Shown: positions 5,972-60,158 of the stretch, piece by piece
Layout of the letters: each line of letters begins with the position of its first letter
Position numbering within the stretch: the first letter of the stretch is position 1
Translations under genes and position numbers: made by a program
Assembly: GCF_010093305.1 (NCBI RefSeq)
Contig: NZ_PDWS01000025.1
Span: 1 to 64,000, forward strand
Origin: Pseudoxanthomonas sacheonensis
GTDB taxonomy: Bacteria > Pseudomonadota > Gammaproteobacteria > Xanthomonadales > Xanthomonadaceae
Direction of reading: 5' to 3'
Length of the DNA: 64,000 bases
Notes under the pieces: model-generated
Databases searched by the model: none
What the model saw: the letters and a program-made list of their open reading frames with translations, nothing else
What the model was told of the DNA's origin: nothing

Positions 5972-5990
5972 GCGTTGGCTCCTTCGGAGC

Positions 5991-6075
5991 CGGGAATGGT
6001 GAATCGGGAACAGGGAATGGACGAGCACAGGGCTCGCGCTTCCTCCATTCTCCATTCCCTATTTCCGATTCCCGG
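5991..6075. repeat. GGGAATNG-type inverted repeat (family A, copy 1)
   Basis: Several tandem 7-9 bp units of the GGGAATGG/GGGAATCGG type on the left are answered by CATTCCC/GATTCCC units on the right, around a variable centre. It fills the ftsQ-ddlB gap. Confidence 0.75.
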
Positions 6076-29389: not shown

Positions 29390-29415
29390 GTCATCCCAGC
29401 AAAAGCTGGGATGAC
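29390..29415. repeat. CATCCCAGC hairpin (family F)
   Basis: A perfect 11-bp stem (GTCATCCCAGC) with an AAAA loop, between the methyltransferase and ribD. It has the same stem architecture as the repeats around the GIY-YIG gene at 47048-47435. Confidence 0.7.
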
Positions 29416-35104: not shown

Positions 35105-35289
35105 CAAATGAATCGTCATCCCAGCGAAAGCTGGGATCCATCTTGATCTTCGCGGGAAGCTTGGACATTGCAGTACCCGGGGTTTCCATGAGCCAAAAGG
35201 TGGCTGATCGAACAGCCATCCCTTGCCGCTGGAGAATTGCGCCGAGATCAAAATGGATCCCAGCTTTCGCTGGGATGACGATTCATTTT
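35105..35289. mobile_element. MITE-like element with 45-bp terminal inverted repeats
   Basis: Terminal repeats at 35105-35149 and 35245-35289 match with one mismatch. Each contains an internal hairpin of 8-bp stem ATCCCAGC and loop GAAA. The 95-bp centre holds no reading frame, only a small TGGCTG/CAGCCA hairpin. It accounts for most of the 393-bp gene-free stretch between ettA and the DUF3667 gene; the remainder is the two hairpins above and about 100 bp with nothing recognisable. Confidence 0.7.
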
Positions 35290-45775: not shown

Positions 45776-46990
45776 TCAGCCGATCGAATTGGTCAGATCG
45801 TACAGCGGCACCAGCACGGCGATGATGACTATGCCGACCACCGCCGCCAAGACCAAGGTGATCACCGGCACCAGCGCAGCCAGCATGCGGTCCATGGCCT
45901 GGGCGGTCTCCAGTTCGAAGGTGTCGGCGGTCTTCAACAGCATGCCGTCCAGCGCGCCGGATTCCTCGCCGACCTGGATCATCTGCAGCGCCAGTCGCGG
46001 GAAGCGCTTGCCCTTGGCCAGCGAGGCCGACAGGCCGTGGCCGTTCTTCACGTCCTCGGCGGCCTGTTCCACGTCGGCGGACAGGGCGCGGTTGCCCAGC
46101 ACATTGCGGGAGATGCCCAGCGCGGCCAGCAGCGGCACCCCGTTCTTCAGCAAGGTGCCCAGAGTGCGCGCCAGGCGCGCGGTTTCCATCTTCGCCAGCA
46201 GCGGACCGACCAGCTTCTTTTGCAGCAGCCAGGCATCGAAACGGTCGCGGAACACCGGGTCGCGGCGCTTGCGGTCGAGCCACCACAGCAGGGCCGCCGG
46301 CGTACCGATCAGCACGAACCACCAGTCGCGCACGAACAGACCCAGCGCGAGCACGCCGCGCGTGAACCACGGCAGAGTCACGTCCAGGCTTTCGTACATC
46401 AAGGCGAACTGCGGCACCACGTAACCCATCAGGAACAGCAGCGCGAAACCCACCACCACCATCAGGATCGCCGGATACACCATGGCGTTGACCACGCGGC
46501 CGCGCATGGCGCGGCTGCGCTCCAGATAGTCGGCCAGACGCTGCAGTGTTTCGTGCATGCTGCCGCCGGCTTCGCCCGCGCGCACCATGTTGATGTACAG
46601 CCGCGAGAACGTACCGTGCTGCCGTTCCAGCGCCGTGGACAACGGCGCGCCGCCGCGCACCGCGTCGCGGATATCGGCGATGGTGCGCCGCGCTTTGTCG
46701 TCTTCGGGCAGTTCCAGCAGGATGGTCAGCGAACGGTCCAGCGGCTGCCCGGCCCCCAGCAGCGTCGCCAATTGCTGGGTGAACTGCACCAGCCGGTCGC
46801 CGGCGAAGGGCTTGGCCTGGAACAGCGAGCGCAGCGAAGTTCCGCCGCCTTCGGAAGCCAGCCTGGCCTCGACCGGCAAATGCCCCTGCTCCTGCAGACG
46901 CGCCACCACCTCGCCGTCGTTGGCGGCTTCCATCTGGCCGTCGAGGACTTCGCCGCGGGCGTTGAGGGCTTTGTAGCGGTAGAGGGGCAT
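45776..46990 (-). CDS. gspF: type II secretion inner-membrane protein GspF (XpsF)
   Basis: A 404-residue polytopic protein with two GspF/PilC repeats (about 70-190 and 275-395), each ending before a membrane helix. Motifs include FTQQLATLLGAGQPLDRSL and its repeat RTLGTLLKNGVPLLAAL. It is the platform core contacting GspE. The start MPLYRYKAL at 46990 matches the family; the upstream open frame is repeat sequence. It is separated from gspE by 473 bp holding the GIY-YIG cassette. Confidence 0.95.
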   Translation of the reverse strand: MPLYRYKALNARGEVLDGQMEAANDGEVVARLQEQGHLPVEARLASEGGGTSLRSLFQAKPFAGDRLVQFTQQLATLLGAGQPLDRSLTILLELPEDDKARRTIADIRDAVRGGAPLSTALERQHGTFSRLYINMVRAGEAGGSMHETLQRLADYLERSRAMRGRVVNAMVYPAILMVVVGFALLFLMGYVVPQFALMYESLDVTLPWFTRGVLALGLFVRDWWFVLIGTPAALLWWLDRKRRDPVFRDRFDAWLLQKKLVGPLLAKMETARLARTLGTLLKNGVPLLAALGISRNVLGNRALSADVEQAAEDVKNGHGLSASLAKGKRFPRLALQMIQVGEESGALDGMLLKTADTFELETAQAMDRMLAALVPVITLVLAAVVGIVIIAVLVPLYDLTNSIG

Positions 46991-47047: not shown

Positions 47048-47081
47048 CGTCATTCCCGCGAAGGCGGGAACCCATGGACGT
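47048..47081. repeat. terminal inverted repeat, left, of the GIY-YIG cassette
   Basis: 34 bp with an ATTCCCGC stem and GAAG loop, identical to the inverted copy at 47402-47435 except for one base. It includes the last nine codons and the stop of the nuclease gene. Confidence 0.85.
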
Positions 47082-47388
47082 TGGCTTTCGGCACCTGCCC
47101 AGTGATATCCGGCCACAAATCCCGCCATGAAGGATTGCTTTCATCTATCAGGCGAACTTTCCAGGCCCAGTTCCATTTCTTAATGCGCTTCTCTCGCTGG
47201 ATCGCGGACTCCATTGTGGGATGCAATTCATACCAAACCAAACAGGTCACTTCGTAGCGCTTGCTGAAACCTTCAACTACATGCTCCCGATGCTGCCAGG
47301 TCCGGCCGATCAGGTTGCTGGTGACGCCCGCATAAAGCGTTCCATTGCGGCTGCTGGCCAGCAGATAGACGCATGGCTGCTTTTCCAT
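47050..47388 (-). CDS. stand-alone GIY-YIG nuclease
   Basis: A 112-residue single-domain GIY-YIG protein. The signature reads VYLLA...GTLYAGV, with Y8 and Y19. The catalytic arginine R29 lies in SNLIGRTWQHR, followed by H33 and by the metal-binding glutamate E66 in ESAIQREKRIKKW, so the active site looks complete. The ATG at 47388 has a perfect AAGGAGG four bases upstream. The last nine residues (VHGFPPSRE) and the stop are encoded by the left terminal repeat, so gene and repeat form one unit. It interrupts gspE and gspF, which are adjacent in Xanthomonas. The function is unknown; a role in mobility of the flanking repeats is a hypothesis. Confidence 0.85.
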   Translation of the reverse strand: MEKQPCVYLLASSRNGTLYAGVTSNLIGRTWQHREHVVEGFSKRYEVTCLVWYELHPTMESAIQREKRIKKWNWAWKVRLIDESNPSWRDLWPDITGQVPKANVHGFPPSRE

Positions 47389-47401
47389 GACACCTCCTTG
47401 T

Positions 47402-47435
47402 ACGTCCATGGATTCCCGCCTTCGCGGGAATGACG
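47402..47435. repeat. terminal inverted repeat, right, of the GIY-YIG cassette
   Basis: 34-bp copy inverted relative to 47048-47081 (33/34 identical). It lies 13 bp upstream of the nuclease start codon. No target-site duplication is obvious at the outer edges. Confidence 0.85.
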
Positions 47436-47463: not shown

Positions 47464-49200
47464 TTACGCATCTTCCGTAACCCGCAACACCTCCTCGATG
47501 GTCGTCTCCCCGCTCAACGCCTTGACGATGCCGTCCTCGTACATCGTGCGCATGCCCGCATCGCGCGCCAGCTGCTCCAGCTCGCCCATGCCGGCGTGGC
47601 GCATCACCGCGCGGCGCAGCTCGTCGTTCATGACCAGGAATTCCATGATGGTGGTGCGTCCCAGATAGCCCGTGGGCGCGATGGCCGAAGCGCGCGGGCG
47701 GTACAGGAATATCTCGCCCTGCGGCTGATAGCGGCGCAGGGCGAATTTCTCTATTTCCTCCGGCGAGGCCGGGTACTTCTCCGCGTGCGCCGGTTCCAGC
47801 CGGCGCACCAGGCGCTGGGCCAGGATGCCGTTGATGGTGGAAGTCAGCAGGTAATCCTCCACGCCCATGTCCAGCATGCGGGTGATGCCGCCGGCGGCGT
47901 TGTTGGTGTGCAGCGTGGACAGCACCAGGTGACCGGTAAGCGCGGACTGTATGGCGATGCGCGCGGTTTCCAGGTCGCGCATTTCGCCGATCATGATGAT
48001 GTCCGGGTCCTGGCGCACGATGCTGCGCAGGGCGTGCGCGAAGTCCAGGCCGATCTGCGGCTTGGCCTGGATCTGGTTGATGCCTTCGATCTGGTATTCG
48101 ACCGGGTCCTCGACGGTGATGATCTTCACGTCGGCGGTATTGAGTTTGCTCAGCGCGGTGTACAGCGTGGTGGTCTTGCCCGAACCGGTGGGACCGGTGA
48201 CCAGCAGGATGCCGTGCGGTTGCTCCAGCACTTTCTGGAACTGCGGCAGGAAGTGATTGGTGAAGCCGAGCTTGTGGAAGTCGAACACCACCGTTTCGCG
48301 GTCCAGCAGGCGCATCACCACCGACTCGCCGTGCGCGGTGGGCACGGTGCTCACGCGCAGATCAAGCTCCTTGCCCTGCACGCGCAGCATGATGCGGCCG
48401 TCCTGCGGCAGGCGGCGCTCGGCGATGTTGAGCTTGGCCATGATCTTGACGCGGCTGATCACCGCGGCGGTCAGGTTGGCCGGCGGGCTTTCGCCCTCCT
48501 CCAGCACGCCGTCGACGCGGTAGCGCACCTTCAGGCGGTTTTCGAAAGGCTCGATGTGGATGTCGGAGGCGCGCAGTTCCACCGCGCGCTGGATGACCAG
48601 ATTGACCAGGCGGATCACCGGTGCTTCGGAAGCCAGATCGCGCAGGTGCTCGACGTCATCCAGATTGCCGGTGCTCTCGCCGTCGGCGTCCTCCACTATC
48701 GTCCCCATCGCGCTGCGGCCCTGGCCGTGCCAGCGTTCGATCAGATCGTCGATTTCCGAACGCAGGCCCACCCAGGGACGCACCGGATAGCCGGTCGCCA
48801 ACTGCACCGCTTCCACGGCATAGGAGTCGTACGGGTCGGCCATCCACAGATCCAGCCGACCCTGATCCTCGCCCAGCGGGCAGACGTGGAACTGGCGCAG
48901 GAAGCGCGGCGAAAGCGGCTGCGTCTCCGGCGGGAATTCCGGCGGCAGTTCGGGTACCTGCTTCAGGTTGAGCAGCGGCAGCTCCAGCACCTCGGCGCAG
49001 GTCTCGGCATGGTCGCGCTCGGACACCAGGCCCAGCCGGGTCAGCAGCGACAGCAGGTCGCCGCCGGTTTCTTCCTGCAGACGCCGCGCGCGCGCCAGAT
49101 CCGCGTCCTTCAGCCTGCCTTTCTCAAGCAAGGCAGCGACGATCCGCTCGTCCGCGCCTGGATTGGCCTGTTGCGTATCGGGGGCAAGCGCTGCGTTCAC
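47464..49200 (-). CDS. gspE: type II secretion ATPase GspE (XpsE)
   Basis: The hexameric cytoplasmic ATPase that powers pseudopilus assembly. The 578-residue protein has N-terminal MshEN-type domains (about 20-160), the Walker A GPTGSGKTTT (336-345), an aspartate box (VEDPVEYQIEGINQIQ) and a histidine box (STLHTNNAAG). The four cysteines of the usual C-terminal zinc module are missing; that stretch reads RLEPAHAEKYP and YRPRASAIAPTGYLGR. I chose the GTG at 49200 because GGAG lies 7 bases upstream; another GTG at 49227 would add nine residues. It is the first gene of the operon. Confidence 0.95.
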   Translation of the reverse strand: MNAALAPDTQQANPGADERIVAALLEKGRLKDADLARARRLQEETGGDLLSLLTRLGLVSERDHAETCAEVLELPLLNLKQVPELPPEFPPETQPLSPRFLRQFHVCPLGEDQGRLDLWMADPYDSYAVEAVQLATGYPVRPWVGLRSEIDDLIERWHGQGRSAMGTIVEDADGESTGNLDDVEHLRDLASEAPVIRLVNLVIQRAVELRASDIHIEPFENRLKVRYRVDGVLEEGESPPANLTAAVISRVKIMAKLNIAERRLPQDGRIMLRVQGKELDLRVSTVPTAHGESVVMRLLDRETVVFDFHKLGFTNHFLPQFQKVLEQPHGILLVTGPTGSGKTTTLYTALSKLNTADVKIITVEDPVEYQIEGINQIQAKPQIGLDFAHALRSIVRQDPDIIMIGEMRDLETARIAIQSALTGHLVLSTLHTNNAAGGITRMLDMGVEDYLLTSTINGILAQRLVRRLEPAHAEKYPASPEEIEKFALRRYQPQGEIFLYRPRASAIAPTGYLGRTTIMEFLVMNDELRRAVMRHAGMGELEQLARDAGMRTMYEDGIVKALSGETTIEEVLRVTEDA

Positions 49201-49248
49201 GCAGTACTCCGTAAGGAACCGGGGCACACTCTAGCAGCACCTGCCCGG

Positions 49249-49354: not shown

Positions 49355-51571
49355 CTATGCGACCCATGACCTCGCGTTGCGGAACATCCGCAGCCAGGGC
49401 GAATCGTCTTTCCACTCCCGTGGACGCCAGCTGAGATTGACGCTGCGCAAGGTGCGCTCCGGGTGCGGCATCAGGATGGTGGAACGGCCGTCGTCGCTGG
49501 TCAGGCCGGTGATGCCATCGGGCGAACCGTTGGGATTGAGCGGGTATTGCAGCGCCGTGCGTCCGTCTCCGCCGATGAAGCGCAATGCCACCCGGGCCGC
49601 GGCCTGATCGGCCGTGCTGTCGAACTCCGCCCGGCCCTCTCCGTGCGCGACCGACACGGGGATGCGCGAACCGGCCATGCCCTGCAGGAACAGCGAAGGC
49701 GATTCCACCACTTCCAGCAGGGACAGGCGCGCTTCGAATTGCTCGCTGCGGTTGCGCAGGAAGCGCGGCCAGTGCGTGGCGCCGGGAATGATGTCCTTCA
49801 ACTGGCTCAGCATCTGGCAGCCGTTGCAGACACCCAGCGAGAACGTGTCGCTGCGCTGGAAGAACGCCGCGAACGCATCGCGCAATGCGTTGCGCTCCAG
49901 GATCGAGGTGGCCCACCCACGGCCCGCGCCCAGCACATCGCCGTAGCTGAAGCCGCCGCAGGCGGCGAAACCCTTGAATCCGTCCAGCTTCACGCGCCCG
50001 CCGATCAGGTCGCTCATGTGCACGTCGAACGCTTCGAAGCCGGCGCGGTCGAACGCGGCGGCCATTTCGATCTGGCCATTGACGCCCTGCTCGCGCAGGA
50101 TCGCGACCTTCGGCCGGACGCCCTTGGCGATGTAGGGAGCGGCGATGTCTTCGGCCGGATCGAAGCTCAGCTTCGGGCGTAAACCGGGCGCCGAGAAATC
50201 GCGTGCGGATTCGCGCTCCTCATCGGCCGTTTCCGGATTGTCGCGCAGCTTCTGCATGGCGTGGGTGACCGACCACCAGGCGTCGAACAGCTCGTCCCAG
50301 CGCCATTGCGCCAGCGTCTGCCCTTCCTGTTCGACGCGGATCACCGGCGCAGTGGTGGGCTTGGCGATGCGCTGCGCGCATTCGGTCAACGCGTGGCGTT
50401 CGACCAGATCCGCGAAGGCGGCGCGGTCTTCGGCCGATACCTGCACCACCGCGCCCAGCTCTTCGGCGAACAGAGTGCGGAACGGATCGTCGCCCCACCC
50501 GTCCAGTTGGATGTCCAGCCCGCAATGCGCCGCGAACGCCATTTCGCACAGCGCCGCGAACGCGCCGCCGTCGCTGCGGTCGTGGTAGGCCAGCAGCACG
50601 CCGGCTTCGCGCGCATCGCGGATGAGTTCGAAGAAATCGCGCAGCCGTTGCGGATCGTCCAGGTCGGGCACGCTGTCGTCCGCATCGCTGCCGCCAAAGG
50701 CCGGCAACGCGCCCGCGCCCGCTTCGGGATGGCACTGCGCCAGTACCGAACCGCCGAGGCGCTGCTTGCCTGCGCCCAGGCCGATCAACCACAGATCGCT
50801 GTCCTCTTCGCGTGCCAGCAGCGGCGTGAGTTGCTCGCGCGCGTCGGTGACCGGGGCGAAGGCGGTGATGATCAGCGAGACCGGCGAAACGGATTTCTGC
50901 GTTGTGCCGGGAATGGGGAATAGGGAATGGGGAATGGAAAAATCGGATGCGGTTACGGCAGCGGCGCTGTTGCTCTTGCTATTCCCGATTCCCGATTCCC
51001 CATTCCCGGCTACAACCCATTGCGCCTGCATCGACAGCGAATCCTTGCCGACCGGGATGCTCAGATCGATCTCGGGACAAAGCTGCATGCCCACCGCTTT
51101 CACCGCGTCGAAAAGCAAAGCGTCTTCGCCGTCGTGGTTGGCCGCGGCCATCCAGTTGGCGGAGAGCTTGATGCGGTCCAGCGATTCCACCGGCGCCGCG
51201 CACAGATTGGTGATCGCTTCGCCGACCGCCATGCGCGCCGAAGCGGCGGCATCGAGCAACGCCAACGGCGTGCGTTCGCCGATGGCCATGGCTTCGCCGA
51301 CGTAGCCGTCGAAACCCGACAGGGTGATGGCGCAGTCGGCCAGCGGCAGCTGCCAGGGGCCGATCATCTGGTCGCGCGCGGTCAGTCCGCCGACGCTGCG
51401 GTCGCCGATGGTGACCAGGAATTGCTTGGAAGCCACCGACGGATGCGCGAGCACGCGCAGGCCGGCGTCGTGCAGGTTCAGGCCCGCCGTTTCCACCGCC
51501 GGCCAACGCGGCGCGGGCGGATGCGCGGTGTCGCGGTGCATTTTCGGCGGCTTGCCGAACAGCACGTCCAT
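49355..51571 (-). CDS. purL: FGAM synthetase, C-terminal part (purL interrupted)
   Basis: The second 738 codons of purL, in the same frame as the N-terminal part but after an in-frame TAA. They encode the second AIRS-like catalytic half (from MDVLFGKPPKMHRD) and the glutaminase domain with its nucleophile in GVCNGCQ and the HPER motif. If translated separately it would have to start near the ATG at 51571, which lacks a good ribosome-binding site. Within it, residues encoded by 50908-51009 are an inserted family A palindrome (GESGIGNSKS...FPIPG) in a loop between SMQAQW and SPVSL. Catalytic motifs are otherwise intact. Confidence 0.85.
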   Translation of the reverse strand: MDVLFGKPPKMHRDTAHPPAPRWPAVETAGLNLHDAGLRVLAHPSVASKQFLVTIGDRSVGGLTARDQMIGPWQLPLADCAITLSGFDGYVGEAMAIGERTPLALLDAAASARMAVGEAITNLCAAPVESLDRIKLSANWMAAANHDGEDALLFDAVKAVGMQLCPEIDLSIPVGKDSLSMQAQWVVAGNGESGIGNSKSNSAAAVTASDFSIPHSLFPIPGTTQKSVSPVSLIITAFAPVTDAREQLTPLLAREEDSDLWLIGLGAGKQRLGGSVLAQCHPEAGAGALPAFGGSDADDSVPDLDDPQRLRDFFELIRDAREAGVLLAYHDRSDGGAFAALCEMAFAAHCGLDIQLDGWGDDPFRTLFAEELGAVVQVSAEDRAAFADLVERHALTECAQRIAKPTTAPVIRVEQEGQTLAQWRWDELFDAWWSVTHAMQKLRDNPETADEERESARDFSAPGLRPKLSFDPAEDIAAPYIAKGVRPKVAILREQGVNGQIEMAAAFDRAGFEAFDVHMSDLIGGRVKLDGFKGFAACGGFSYGDVLGAGRGWATSILERNALRDAFAAFFQRSDTFSLGVCNGCQMLSQLKDIIPGATHWPRFLRNRSEQFEARLSLLEVVESPSLFLQGMAGSRIPVSVAHGEGRAEFDSTADQAAARVALRFIGGDGRTALQYPLNPNGSPDGITGLTSDDGRSTILMPHPERTLRSVNLSWRPREWKDDSPWLRMFRNARSWVA
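50908..51009. repeat. family A inverted repeat (copy 3) inside purL
   Basis: GGGAAT-type units on the left and ATTCCCGATTCCC units on the right flank a centre of about 45 bases. It is read through in frame by purL, adding about 34 residues. Confidence 0.8.
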
Positions 51572-51590
51572 GGGCAGATCGATCGCATAA

Positions 51591-51753
51591 GCCCCTCTCC
51601 CGTCGGGAGAGGGGTTGGGGTGAGGTTACGGCGAAGTGGAAGTGCTGCCGTACTCCGTACCCTCACACCCCAAGAGTGCTTCCTTCGGGGCGTCCGCCCT
51701 TCGGGCACCCCGTATCAAGTACGGGGCAGGCTCTTCTCCCGACGGGAGAAGGG
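51591..51753. repeat. composite family B palindromes interrupting purL
   Basis: GCCCCTCTCCCGTCGGGAGA at one end and CTTCTCCCGACGGGAGAAG at the other enclose further hairpins such as CCCCGTA/TACGGGG and the GGTGCCCGAAGGGCGGA tail. That tail is shared with valS and the nrdR-ribD gap. Read in the purL frame it contributes roughly 55 codons and one TAA at 51626-51628. Confidence 0.8.
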
Positions 51754-53494
51754 AATCCACAGTGGCGCCATAACCCACAACTAGGCGTTCGTTCGCAGTC
51801 GCCACACCCACCGCCGCAAACGGACACCGCTCCCGCTCGCACAGCGCGGCGAATTCCGCCAGCCGCTCCTGCGCCACGCCCAGCACATAACGTTCCTGCG
51901 ATTCGTTGCACCACAGCTGCATCGGCGACAGCGAAGGATCGTCGCTGGGCACACGGTCCAGGTCGATCACCCCGCCCATGCCGGAATCGTGCAGCAATTC
52001 GGGAATCGCATTGGACAGGCCGCCCGCGCCGACGTCGTGGAACCAGCGGATCGGATTGTCCGCGCCCATCGCCACGCAGCGGTCGATCACTTCCTGGCAG
52101 CGGCGCTCCATTTCCGGGTTGTCGCGCTGCACGCTGGCGAAATCCAGGTCTTCGGCGGTGTCGCCCGAGGCCACCGAACTGGCGGCGCCGCCGCCCAGAC
52201 CGATCAGCATCGCCGGGCCGCCGAGCACGATCACCGCGTCGCCGGGCTGCAGACGGGTTTTTTCGACCTGGATGCGGTCGATGGCGCCCAGGCCGCCTGC
52301 GAGCATGATCGGCTTGTCGTAAGCGCGGGTCAGCGTCGCGGACTCGGGGAGTTCGAAACTGCGGAAGTAACCGGTCAGGTTCGGGCGTCCGAATTCGTTG
52401 TTGAACGCGGCCGCGCCCAACGGACCGTCCAACATGATTTCCAGTGCCGGCGCCATGCGCGGATTCAGCGCGCGCGGCGCTTCCCAGGCTTGCGGCAACG
52501 TAGGAATACGCAGGTGCGAGACACTGAAACCGCTCAGCCCCGCCTTGGGCTTGCCGCCGCGGCCGGTGGCGCCTTCATCGCGGATTTCGCCGCCGGCACC
52601 GGTACTGGCGCCCGGGAATGGCGCGATGGCGGTGGGATGGTTGTGCGTTTCCACCTTGATGCAGAACGCCGAATCGATCTTCGGCTCGCTGCGGTAGGCG
52701 CCATCGGCGCCGGGACGGAAACGCGAGGACGCATAGCCTTCCACCACCGCGGCATTGTCGCTGTACGCCGACAGGGTGTGCTGCGGGGTCTGCGCATGGG
52801 TGTGCTTGATCATGCGGAACAGCGATTGCGGCTGGTCCTTGCCTTCCAGGGTCCAGGTCGCGTTGAATATCTTGTGGCGGCAGTGCTCGGAATTGGCCTG
52901 CGCGAACATCATCAGTTCGACATCGGAAGGATCGCGGCCCAGTTCGCCGTAGCGCAGGCGCAGATAGTCGATCTCATCGTCGGCCAAGGCCAGGCCCAGC
53001 CGCTTGTTGGCCGCCTCCAGCGCGCCCAGCGCGATGCGCTCCAGCGTGCCGCGCGGCGGTGCGGTGAACAGCGCCGCGGCTTGCTCGCGCGCCGAGAGCA
53101 GGGATTGGGTCATCGGGTCGTGCAGCAGCTTGGCCAGCGCGGCGGAGTCTTCCCAGCCTTGCAGGTCGATGCGGGTCCCGCGCTCCACGCGCTTGACCGG
53201 CAGGCCGGCGCCGCGCAGCAGTTCGGTGGCCTTGCTGGCCCAGGGCGACAAGGTGCCAAGACGCGGCACGATGAAACGCGACTGGGTGTCCTCTGCCGCC
53301 GCCACCGGATCGGACGAGGCCTGCAGGATGCGGCCAAGGGTGCCGATGTCGACCTCGGCGCCCGCTTCGGGTTCGACGAAATAGACGTACCAGGCCCCGC
53401 GCACCAGCACGGAAGGCGAGACGGACTGCAATCGGGATTCAAGCCGCGCGCGGCGGAACTGCGACAGGGCCGGCTGGCCCTCGAGGACGATCAT
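51626..53494 (-). CDS. purL: FGAM synthetase, N-terminal part (purL interrupted)
   Basis: Phosphoribosylformylglycinamidine synthase, step 4 of purine synthesis, normally about 1300 residues in one chain. This reading frame gives the first 622: the PurS-like N-terminal domain, the linker and the first catalytic half, with NSEHCRHK at 201-208 and the [19 protein letters not shown] region. Native sequence ends at [11 protein letters not shown]. The next 44 codons come from an inserted palindromic repeat and end at TAA (51626-51628). Reading continues in the same frame without shift into the C-terminal part. It may be a split but working enzyme, a pseudogene, or a sequence error at the stop. Confidence 0.88.
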
Positions 53495-60041: not shown

Positions 60042-60152
60042 GAGTAGGGAATAGGGAATCGTGAAGAGCAAAGCGTTTCCGCCATCAGCTTCGACTTGGG
60101 GAACAGCGGCTCTTCGCTGTTTCCATTCCCGGTTCCCCATTCCCCATTCCCT
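60032..60152. repeat. family A inverted repeat (copy 4)
   Basis: GGGAAT-type units at the pepA stop are mirrored by CATTCCC and GGTTCCCC units just before holC. The element fills the pepA-holC gap and overlaps the pepA stop codon. Confidence 0.75.
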
Positions 60153-60158
60153 GCCCTG

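Follow-up and report, generated by a model that had tools for sequence, protein, structure and literature searches.

The cassette between gspE and gspF in Pseudoxanthomonas sacheonensis appears to be a second kind of REPtron, in which a stand-alone Ssn-type GIY-YIG endonuclease is bracketed by CGTC-tagged REPs and would be specific for them; we put the probability of this reading at about 0.8. The nuclease is probably the long-sought partner of the CGTC REP family. The association of nuclease and REP is close to proven. From the comparison of sequences, we strongly infer that the protein is most likely an Ssn-like nuclease having its own flanking REP as substrate.

The cassette was found in the window, which is the whole analyzed stretch of 64,000 nucleotides (NZ_PDWS01000025.1, positions 1 to 64,000). 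The GIY-YIG nuclease gene encodes 112 amino acids on the minus strand (47053..47388, with ATG at 47388 and the stop codon at 47050-47052). Upstream of it, the ribosome-binding site AAGGAGGT was read off the sequence on the same strand (47392..47399). The gene is located between two CGTC REPs in inverted orientation: the upstream one at 47402..47435 (minus strand) and the downstream one at 47048..47081 (plus strand). These arms are 34 nt each, are complementary at 33 of 34 positions (97%), and are spaced by 320 nt. The downstream REP gives the gene its final nine full codons and the stop codon, and an alternative in-frame ATG at 47409, within the upstream repeat, would result in a product of 119 amino acids. 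The neighboring operon genes are gspE (xpsE, 47464..49227, TIGR02533 in NCBIfam) upstream and gspF (xpsF, 45776..46990, protein start MPLYRYKAL, NF047826, XpsF/GspF in NCBIfam) downstream; all three genes have the same direction, on the minus strand. This anatomy, including the near-identical repeats, the gene end inside the repeat, the position between gspE and gspF, and the ribosome-binding site, had been proposed in a sequence-only reading of the window and was confirmed. When folded as single-stranded DNA, one strand of the upstream REP yields -11.5 kcal/mol (z -4.2), and both strands of the downstream REP fold more weakly (z -1.8 and -2.3). A defense-system reading was dropped, since the PADLOC search revealed no defense family at E 0.01. 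A phage origin was also dropped, with no PHROG match and no tblastn match among 50,697 phage records.

Each arm, when read toward the gene, consists of CGTC, an 8-bp stem starting with AT (ATTCCCGC), a 4-nt loop, GCGGGAAT, CCA, and the tail TGGACGT; in one of the arms, the stem contains one mismatch (AAC in place of AAT). The upstream REP reads CGTC + ATTCCCGC-GAAG-GCGGGAAT + CCATGGACGT. In the part of the original description available to us, CGTC-1 REPs are defined by the CGTC tag, an 8-bp stem starting with AT, a 4-nt loop, and a CCA tail, and the dRS3 repeat of Neisseria is named as a member (Di Nocera et al., 2013, PMC3733652). Judged from their sequences and by this definition, the cassette arms classify as CGTC-1 REPs, with which they share tag, stem, loop, and CCA tail as well as the occurrence in inverted doublets. 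The available part of the same paper, which catalogued CGTC REPs in 2013, reports no dedicated enzyme for them (PMC3733652), whereas here an enzyme gene was found bracketed by such REPs.

The repeat also occurs outside the cassette, being a genome-wide REP. CGTC-1 REPs were found in 49 places of the 4.04-Mb window genome (G000) with at most one mismatch, and a reversed control pattern was found in none. Many of these REPs form inverted doublets, mostly 60-85 bp apart and with CGTC outward, and are thus arranged like the cassette, the ends of which resemble doublet ends. An outward-facing partner within 160 bp was found for 15 of the 30 REP places read with the relaxed finder, some of these places being halves of one doublet. 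Two REP doublets fold as single strands into long hairpins (z -14.7 and -9.3). Within this abundant stem-loop class, the TGGAC tail of the cassette was found in only 4 places, two of them being the cassette itself, and this pattern had one hit in the control. The commonest tail, AGYGACTT, was found in 27 places, and the nuclease type cognate to it is absent from the two nuclease matches of the window genome. Thus, the abundant REPs match a nuclease type that was not found here, which counts against the simple view of the present enzyme as the maker of the present REPs. The second nuclease copy of this genome (L003, G000:C22:264983) has an early frameshift, as judged by eye, and its flanking REPs belong to the AGCTGG class, unlike those of the window copy. 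Further CGTC hairpins of the AGCTGG class are located in the window at 35115-35279 and 29390-29415, one of these places being an inverted pair.

The GIY-YIG domain was recognized in the window ORF by Pfam (PF01541, E 1.3e-13). The active site, which had been described as apparently intact, is supported by conservation in deduplicated relatives: Y8 was found in 147 of 149, Y19 in 151 of 154, R29 in 151 of 154, and E66 in all 154. Position 74 is occupied by Arg in 150 of 153 relatives and by Trp in the window copy; with R74 being near-invariant, this copy may be impaired. The dN/dS value is 0.039 against the nearest orthologue (in G037) and 0.06-0.14 for the other computable pairs (12 of 15 pairs in total), which shows purifying selection on the nuclease. 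In the AlphaFold2 model, 73 of 112 residues have pLDDT of at least 90 and most of residues 1-98 are confident; residues 99-112, including the REP-encoded tail, have pLDDT below 50. Foldseek returned weak matches to UPF0213, Slx1, and UvrC N-domains, the best of them being UPF0213 protein BH0048 (1zg2, E 6.9e-3), and a sequence search of PDB gave no match.

In total, 305 relatives of the nuclease were confirmed in genome contigs, and the pairing counts were made for the best 80 of these 305, a non-random selection. These 80 belong to Xanthomonadaceae, Sphingomonads, Methylococcaceae, other Gammaproteobacteria, a filamentous cyanobacterium, and metagenome-assembled genomes of several phyla. The association of nuclease and repeat suggested in the sequence-only reading is supported by these loci. 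With the strict finder, outward CGTC REPs on both sides were found for 39 of the best 80 nuclease genes and for none of the 724 control ORFs, which are the other mechanical ORFs of at least 80 amino acids in these loci. At least one REP was found for 67 of the 80 genes and for 31 of the 724 ORFs. With the relaxed finder, the corresponding numbers for the best 80 of 305 were 51/80 vs. 1/712 for both sides and 78/80 vs. 46/712 for any REP. Thus, the repeats are not equally common around unrelated genes. Relatives without any repeat beside the gene by the relaxed finder were found at two loci, L128 and L136, the latter lying at a contig end. Near the nuclease gene, 2.16 REPs were found per kb, compared to 0.040 per kb elsewhere. 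In related loci totaling 1.23 Mb, the strict finder detected 192 CGTC REPs, compared to 4 after these loci were shuffled once, so the arms are not a product of chance.

In the family set, REPs on both sides were found at 43 of 95 loci and any REP at 62 of 95 loci by the strict finder; the relaxed finder detected both REPs at 55 of the 95. The domain is uninterrupted in 141 of 156 distinct genes, and both REPs were found for 82 of the 141. The gene runs into or through its REP in 28 of the 141 intact genes, with the stop codon placed as in the window in 21 of the 28. Therefore, the ending of the gene inside its repeat, from which gene and repeat had been taken to be one unit, is not borne out as a general trait. 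In the plasmid AZO_p3 of Azospirillum lipoferum 4B (L236), a relative occupies the space between sufB and sufC and is flanked on either side by a REP doublet.

The class of the REPs follows the lineage of the nuclease. One of six REP stem classes was assigned to 73 of the 95 family loci. The stem class requires 10 changes on the nuclease tree, whereas 500 shuffles required 26.5 on average and never fewer than 21. For host genus (24 genera), 41 changes are required on the same tree, against a shuffle mean of 52.4 and a minimum of 46; the REP stem class thus tracks the nuclease tree better than host genus does, the host signal being weaker. The left and right REPs are identical in class at 54 of 55 loci. 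Additionally, over 91 loci, 18.8 of 20 stem-loop positions agree between the left and right REP of a locus, compared to 15.1 between loci, and none of 2000 permutations was as high. The nearest nuclease from another genus has the same class in 55 of 72 cases, with 0.41 expected, and nucleases from the same genome differ in class in 17 of 27 pairs. REPs with the TGGAC tail were found in 12 of 38 genus genomes, including all 8 genomes assigned a TGGACGT-type nuclease (G000, G005, G014, G025, G031, G033, G035, and G037, the type in G014 and G031 being assigned from identity and nearby REPs and not from the full locus). Among the other 30 genus genomes, such tails were found in 4, with 19 in G034 and 1 in each of the other three. 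The genome of G029 has a AGCGACTT-type nuclease at the same site as the window cassette and 61 places with the AGYGACTT tail. A nuclease of 42% identity at L227 (G148:C159) has REPs with the quite different stem TTGCGGG, which fits a matched enzyme and repeat.

Co-occurrence was analyzed in 198 genomes of Xanthomonadaceae, in 63 of which the nuclease was detected. The median REP count is 30 in the genomes with the nuclease (n = 63) and 0 in those without it (n = 135). At least 10 REPs were found in 45 of 63 genomes with the nuclease vs. 10 of 135 without it (p 2.6e-20, kinship ignored). Counter-cases exist in both directions: the 10 genomes of the 135 have at least 10 REPs with no nuclease detected, and 15 of the 63 nuclease genomes have fewer than 5 REPs of the tested class, some of them carrying another class. 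In one genome (G092:C16:10-399), five REPs are arranged in tandem with 91-bp spacing.

The history of the cassette sites includes stay, probable loss, swap, and inversion. Among 30 loci of the genus with gspE, 8 contain a cassette of one of two types, in 2 a single REP remnant was recognized by eye, in 1 the spacer measures 13 bp, and in 19 no gspF was found beside gspE. The empty 13-bp spacer, in G010, shows no traceable target. In G034, a relative of G035, the whole cassette is missing except for a degenerate downstream REP; both flanks of these two genomes match closely, with 330 of 350 columns on the gspE side, and loss appears likelier here than gain. Between the window genome and G029, the flanks are 95% and 93% identical and the gene 68%, with the REP tail changed to match, which amounts to a swap of the cassette in place. 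Among the family loci, 84 of 95 fall into eight flank clusters (28, 24, 17, 4, 4, 4, 2, and 1) and 11 are singletons. With these 84 loci at mostly orthologous sites across genera, recent hopping is not seen. Inverted cassettes were found in two clusters (L189, L205, and L215 in one and L184 in the other). The first three are located at the LOG/yhdH-like site, all belong to one genus, and have another REP stem class; the flanking genes at this site and at the kynU and prmB sites were named by eye from translations.

For gene pairs with at least 85% DNA identity, homologous flanks are shared by 13 of 18, a set that excludes 19 same-locus pairs from two collections and in which some pairs still repeat a locus. 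The five pairs with non-homologous flanks (L157-L160, L133-L157, L147-L148, L133-L160, and L141-L160) may have arisen by movement or transfer in other groups. Among the family loci compared, none revealed a clean empty target together with a site duplication. The shared flanks and mostly orthologous sites weaken the candidate of an actively hopping transposon. The claim that gene and repeats travel together as one 388-bp unit is likewise not supported as stated, since the same few orthologous sites hold the cassettes in different genera. The unit resembles a REPtron rather than a hopping transposon, as most copies are at conserved sites where absence, inversion, and swaps in place occur. For the REP doublet at L020, five relatives (L253-L257) have no REP at the matching locus according to the relaxed finder, with only one flank continuous in four of the five. 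At the one site aligned with it, in G037, the intergenic flanks are too diverged and no junction is visible.

A homologue was found in Neisseria. A tblastn search of PLSDB revealed a gene of N. gonorrhoeae 71.7% identical over query residues 4-95, in a record of 2.17 Mb. This record (L235, NZ_CP119140.1) is listed as a plasmid and has the size of a chromosome. The homologue lies amid 16 CGTC-type REPs in 5.3 kb, corresponding to a dRS3-type array, and is probably a member of the Ssn nuclease family. The nearest REP begins 2 bp after its stop codon (8 bp past the end of the match). Unlike in the cassette, the REPs closest to the gene are oriented inward on either side, and outward-facing REPs are located 190 bp upstream and about 160 bp downstream. 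Ssn enzymes of Neisseria reportedly belong to the GIY-YIG superfamily and act exclusively on single-stranded DNA, which they cut at the repeated sequence NTS; the Ssn/NTS pair is said to modulate natural transformation. Both there and here, a small stand-alone GIY-YIG protein is encoded beside a genome-wide repeat. In contrast to Ssn/NTS, the window gene lies between two inverted REPs, the downstream one of which supplies its stop codon, and the REPs are sparse, often in doublets, and do not form large arrays. With regard to sequence, the window protein is probably Ssn-like and not part of a RAYT system.

The other small GIY-YIG family of the window genome, from C13, is YhbQ-like. The YhbQ/UPF0213-like proteins have the same domain, a similar size, and the best, albeit weak, fold match to the window protein (1zg2). 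Unlike the nuclease genes, the YhbQ-like genes have CGTC REPs at 0 of 16 loci. Beside one of them, a perfect 23-bp inverted repeat starting GTAGGAGCGACG (L001:1397-1468) looks like a doublet of the GTAG type.

The arrangement also resembles REPtrons, which in the available parts of two papers are described as tnpA_REP/RAYT genes flanked by GTAG REPs (PMC6006769; PMC3733652) and as apparently not transposing in one piece (PMC6006769). As far as these parts go, each enzyme there has its own REP type, several types exist per genome, the gene lies between its REPs and is mostly fixed in place, and the REPs outlast the gene, all of which is also the case here. The differences are in the enzyme, which in the window is a GIY-YIG protein and not an HUH-Y1 transposase, and in the tag, CGTC and not GTAG. 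The analogy to RAYT transposases and their REPs, drawn from the window alone, is supported by the gene being flanked by its own REP type and by the co-variation of REP type with enzyme. In the open-licence literature, judged by title and the opening of the abstract, no link between a GIY-YIG nuclease and CGTC REPs was found among the matches listed; this is no proof of novelty.

In the proposed mechanism, the protein would recognize the REP hairpin in single-stranded DNA, either of the lagging strand or derived from transformation, and would nick this DNA near the foot of the hairpin. Repair of the nick from other copies of the REP or cassette could spread REPs and REP doublets and could exchange cassettes in place. 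The flanking REPs would hold the gene and its target together. The working mode would be similar to that of RAYT/REP, with a nuclease replacing the HUH transposase. Both the cleavage of the REP and its mobilization by the nuclease are what we infer from the sequence comparisons. In its broadest form, this proposal would make CGTC REPs the second great REP superfamily, in which GIY-YIG single-strand nucleases mobilize REPs and doublets by hairpin cuts and host repair, without transposase chemistry; the cassette would be autonomous, and the scattered doublets would be non-autonomous elements derived from it. We hold this broad form tentatively, at somewhat less than even odds.

Alternatively, the nuclease could act as a gatekeeper: by cutting single-stranded DNA at REPs, whether this DNA is incoming or replicating, it would tune uptake and recombination, the REPs being address labels kept by the host and not mobilized by the enzyme. 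This is possible, at odds well short of even. It agrees with the role reported for Ssn/NTS in natural transformation of Neisseria, with the stable sites of the cassettes, and with the purifying selection on the gene. However, by itself it leaves unexplained that the gene has its own REPs on either side, that one species has a doublet where none was found at the matching locus of relatives, and that whole cassettes are swapped.

The REPs could also be only expression elements, a hairpin at the start codon and a terminator past the stop codon, with an unrelated role for the nuclease. The positions of the hairpins are compatible with this: where found, the upstream hairpin and the start codon are separated by a median of 29 bp, and the stop codon and the downstream hairpin by a median of 9 bp. 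Nevertheless, expression elements would predict neither the genome-wide abundance of REPs in nuclease genomes nor REP classes that track the nuclease lineage, and this explanation is very improbable.

Mobilization of the REPs by RAYT transposases, with nuclease cassettes merely landing in or near REPs (homing into REP doublets), was rejected as very improbable. In its favor, the window genome has 8 Y1_Tnp matches, the cassette ends are similar to doublet ends, and in the same genome the Y1_Tnp match at C33:194261 has a CGTC doublet (C33:193501-193563) at a distance of about 700 bp. However, Y1_Tnp, found in 134 of the 198 genomes, is no predictor of at least 10 REPs (38/134 vs. 17/64, p 0.87, kinship ignored). 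The nuclease is a predictor both among the genomes with Y1_Tnp (34/51 vs. 4/83) and among those without it (11/12 vs. 6/52), again with kinship ignored. In REP-rich genomes, a CGTC REP within 700 bp was found for 0 of 20 Y1_Tnp (RAYT-type) genes, with domain matches taken as gene bounds and with a finder that requires the GTC tag, for which reason a doublet about 700 bp from the Y1_Tnp gene at L270 went uncounted; the C33 doublet lies just beyond the 700-bp limit. GTAGRAGC motifs were found in 8 of the 20 Y1_Tnp stretches. Thus, in the same genomes GTAG motifs tend to accompany the Y1 enzymes and CGTC REPs the GIY-YIG nuclease, the lineage of which the REP class also tracks. Finally, chance proximity of a common gene and a repeat that is indeed common in such genomes is refuted by the control counts (0/724 ORFs with REPs on both sides, 0/16 YhbQ-like genes, and 0/20 Y1_Tnp genes within 700 bp).

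Through the link between the nuclease and CGTC REPs, a question that has stood for a decade can be tested directly in soil bacteria that are tractable. Each nuclease gains a predicted substrate, namely its own flanking REP, and the relatives would provide a large natural set of enzyme-target pairs for the cutting of single strands. Should the enzyme spread the REPs as well, repeats would be amplified by nicking alone.

Other repeats were also observed in the window. A repeat of about 170 bp with terminal inverted repeats (51590-51755) splits purL, encoded on the minus strand, into ORFs at 51626-53494 and 49355-51571. At this place the repeat is missing in G037, G004, and G005, and G029 aligns through it at 84%; dozens of partial matches were found elsewhere in the four genomes searched. 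A GGGAATGGG-type repeat is located in frame within the second purL ORF (50880-51019), and similar pieces were found in the window at 5989-6075 and 60120-60154.
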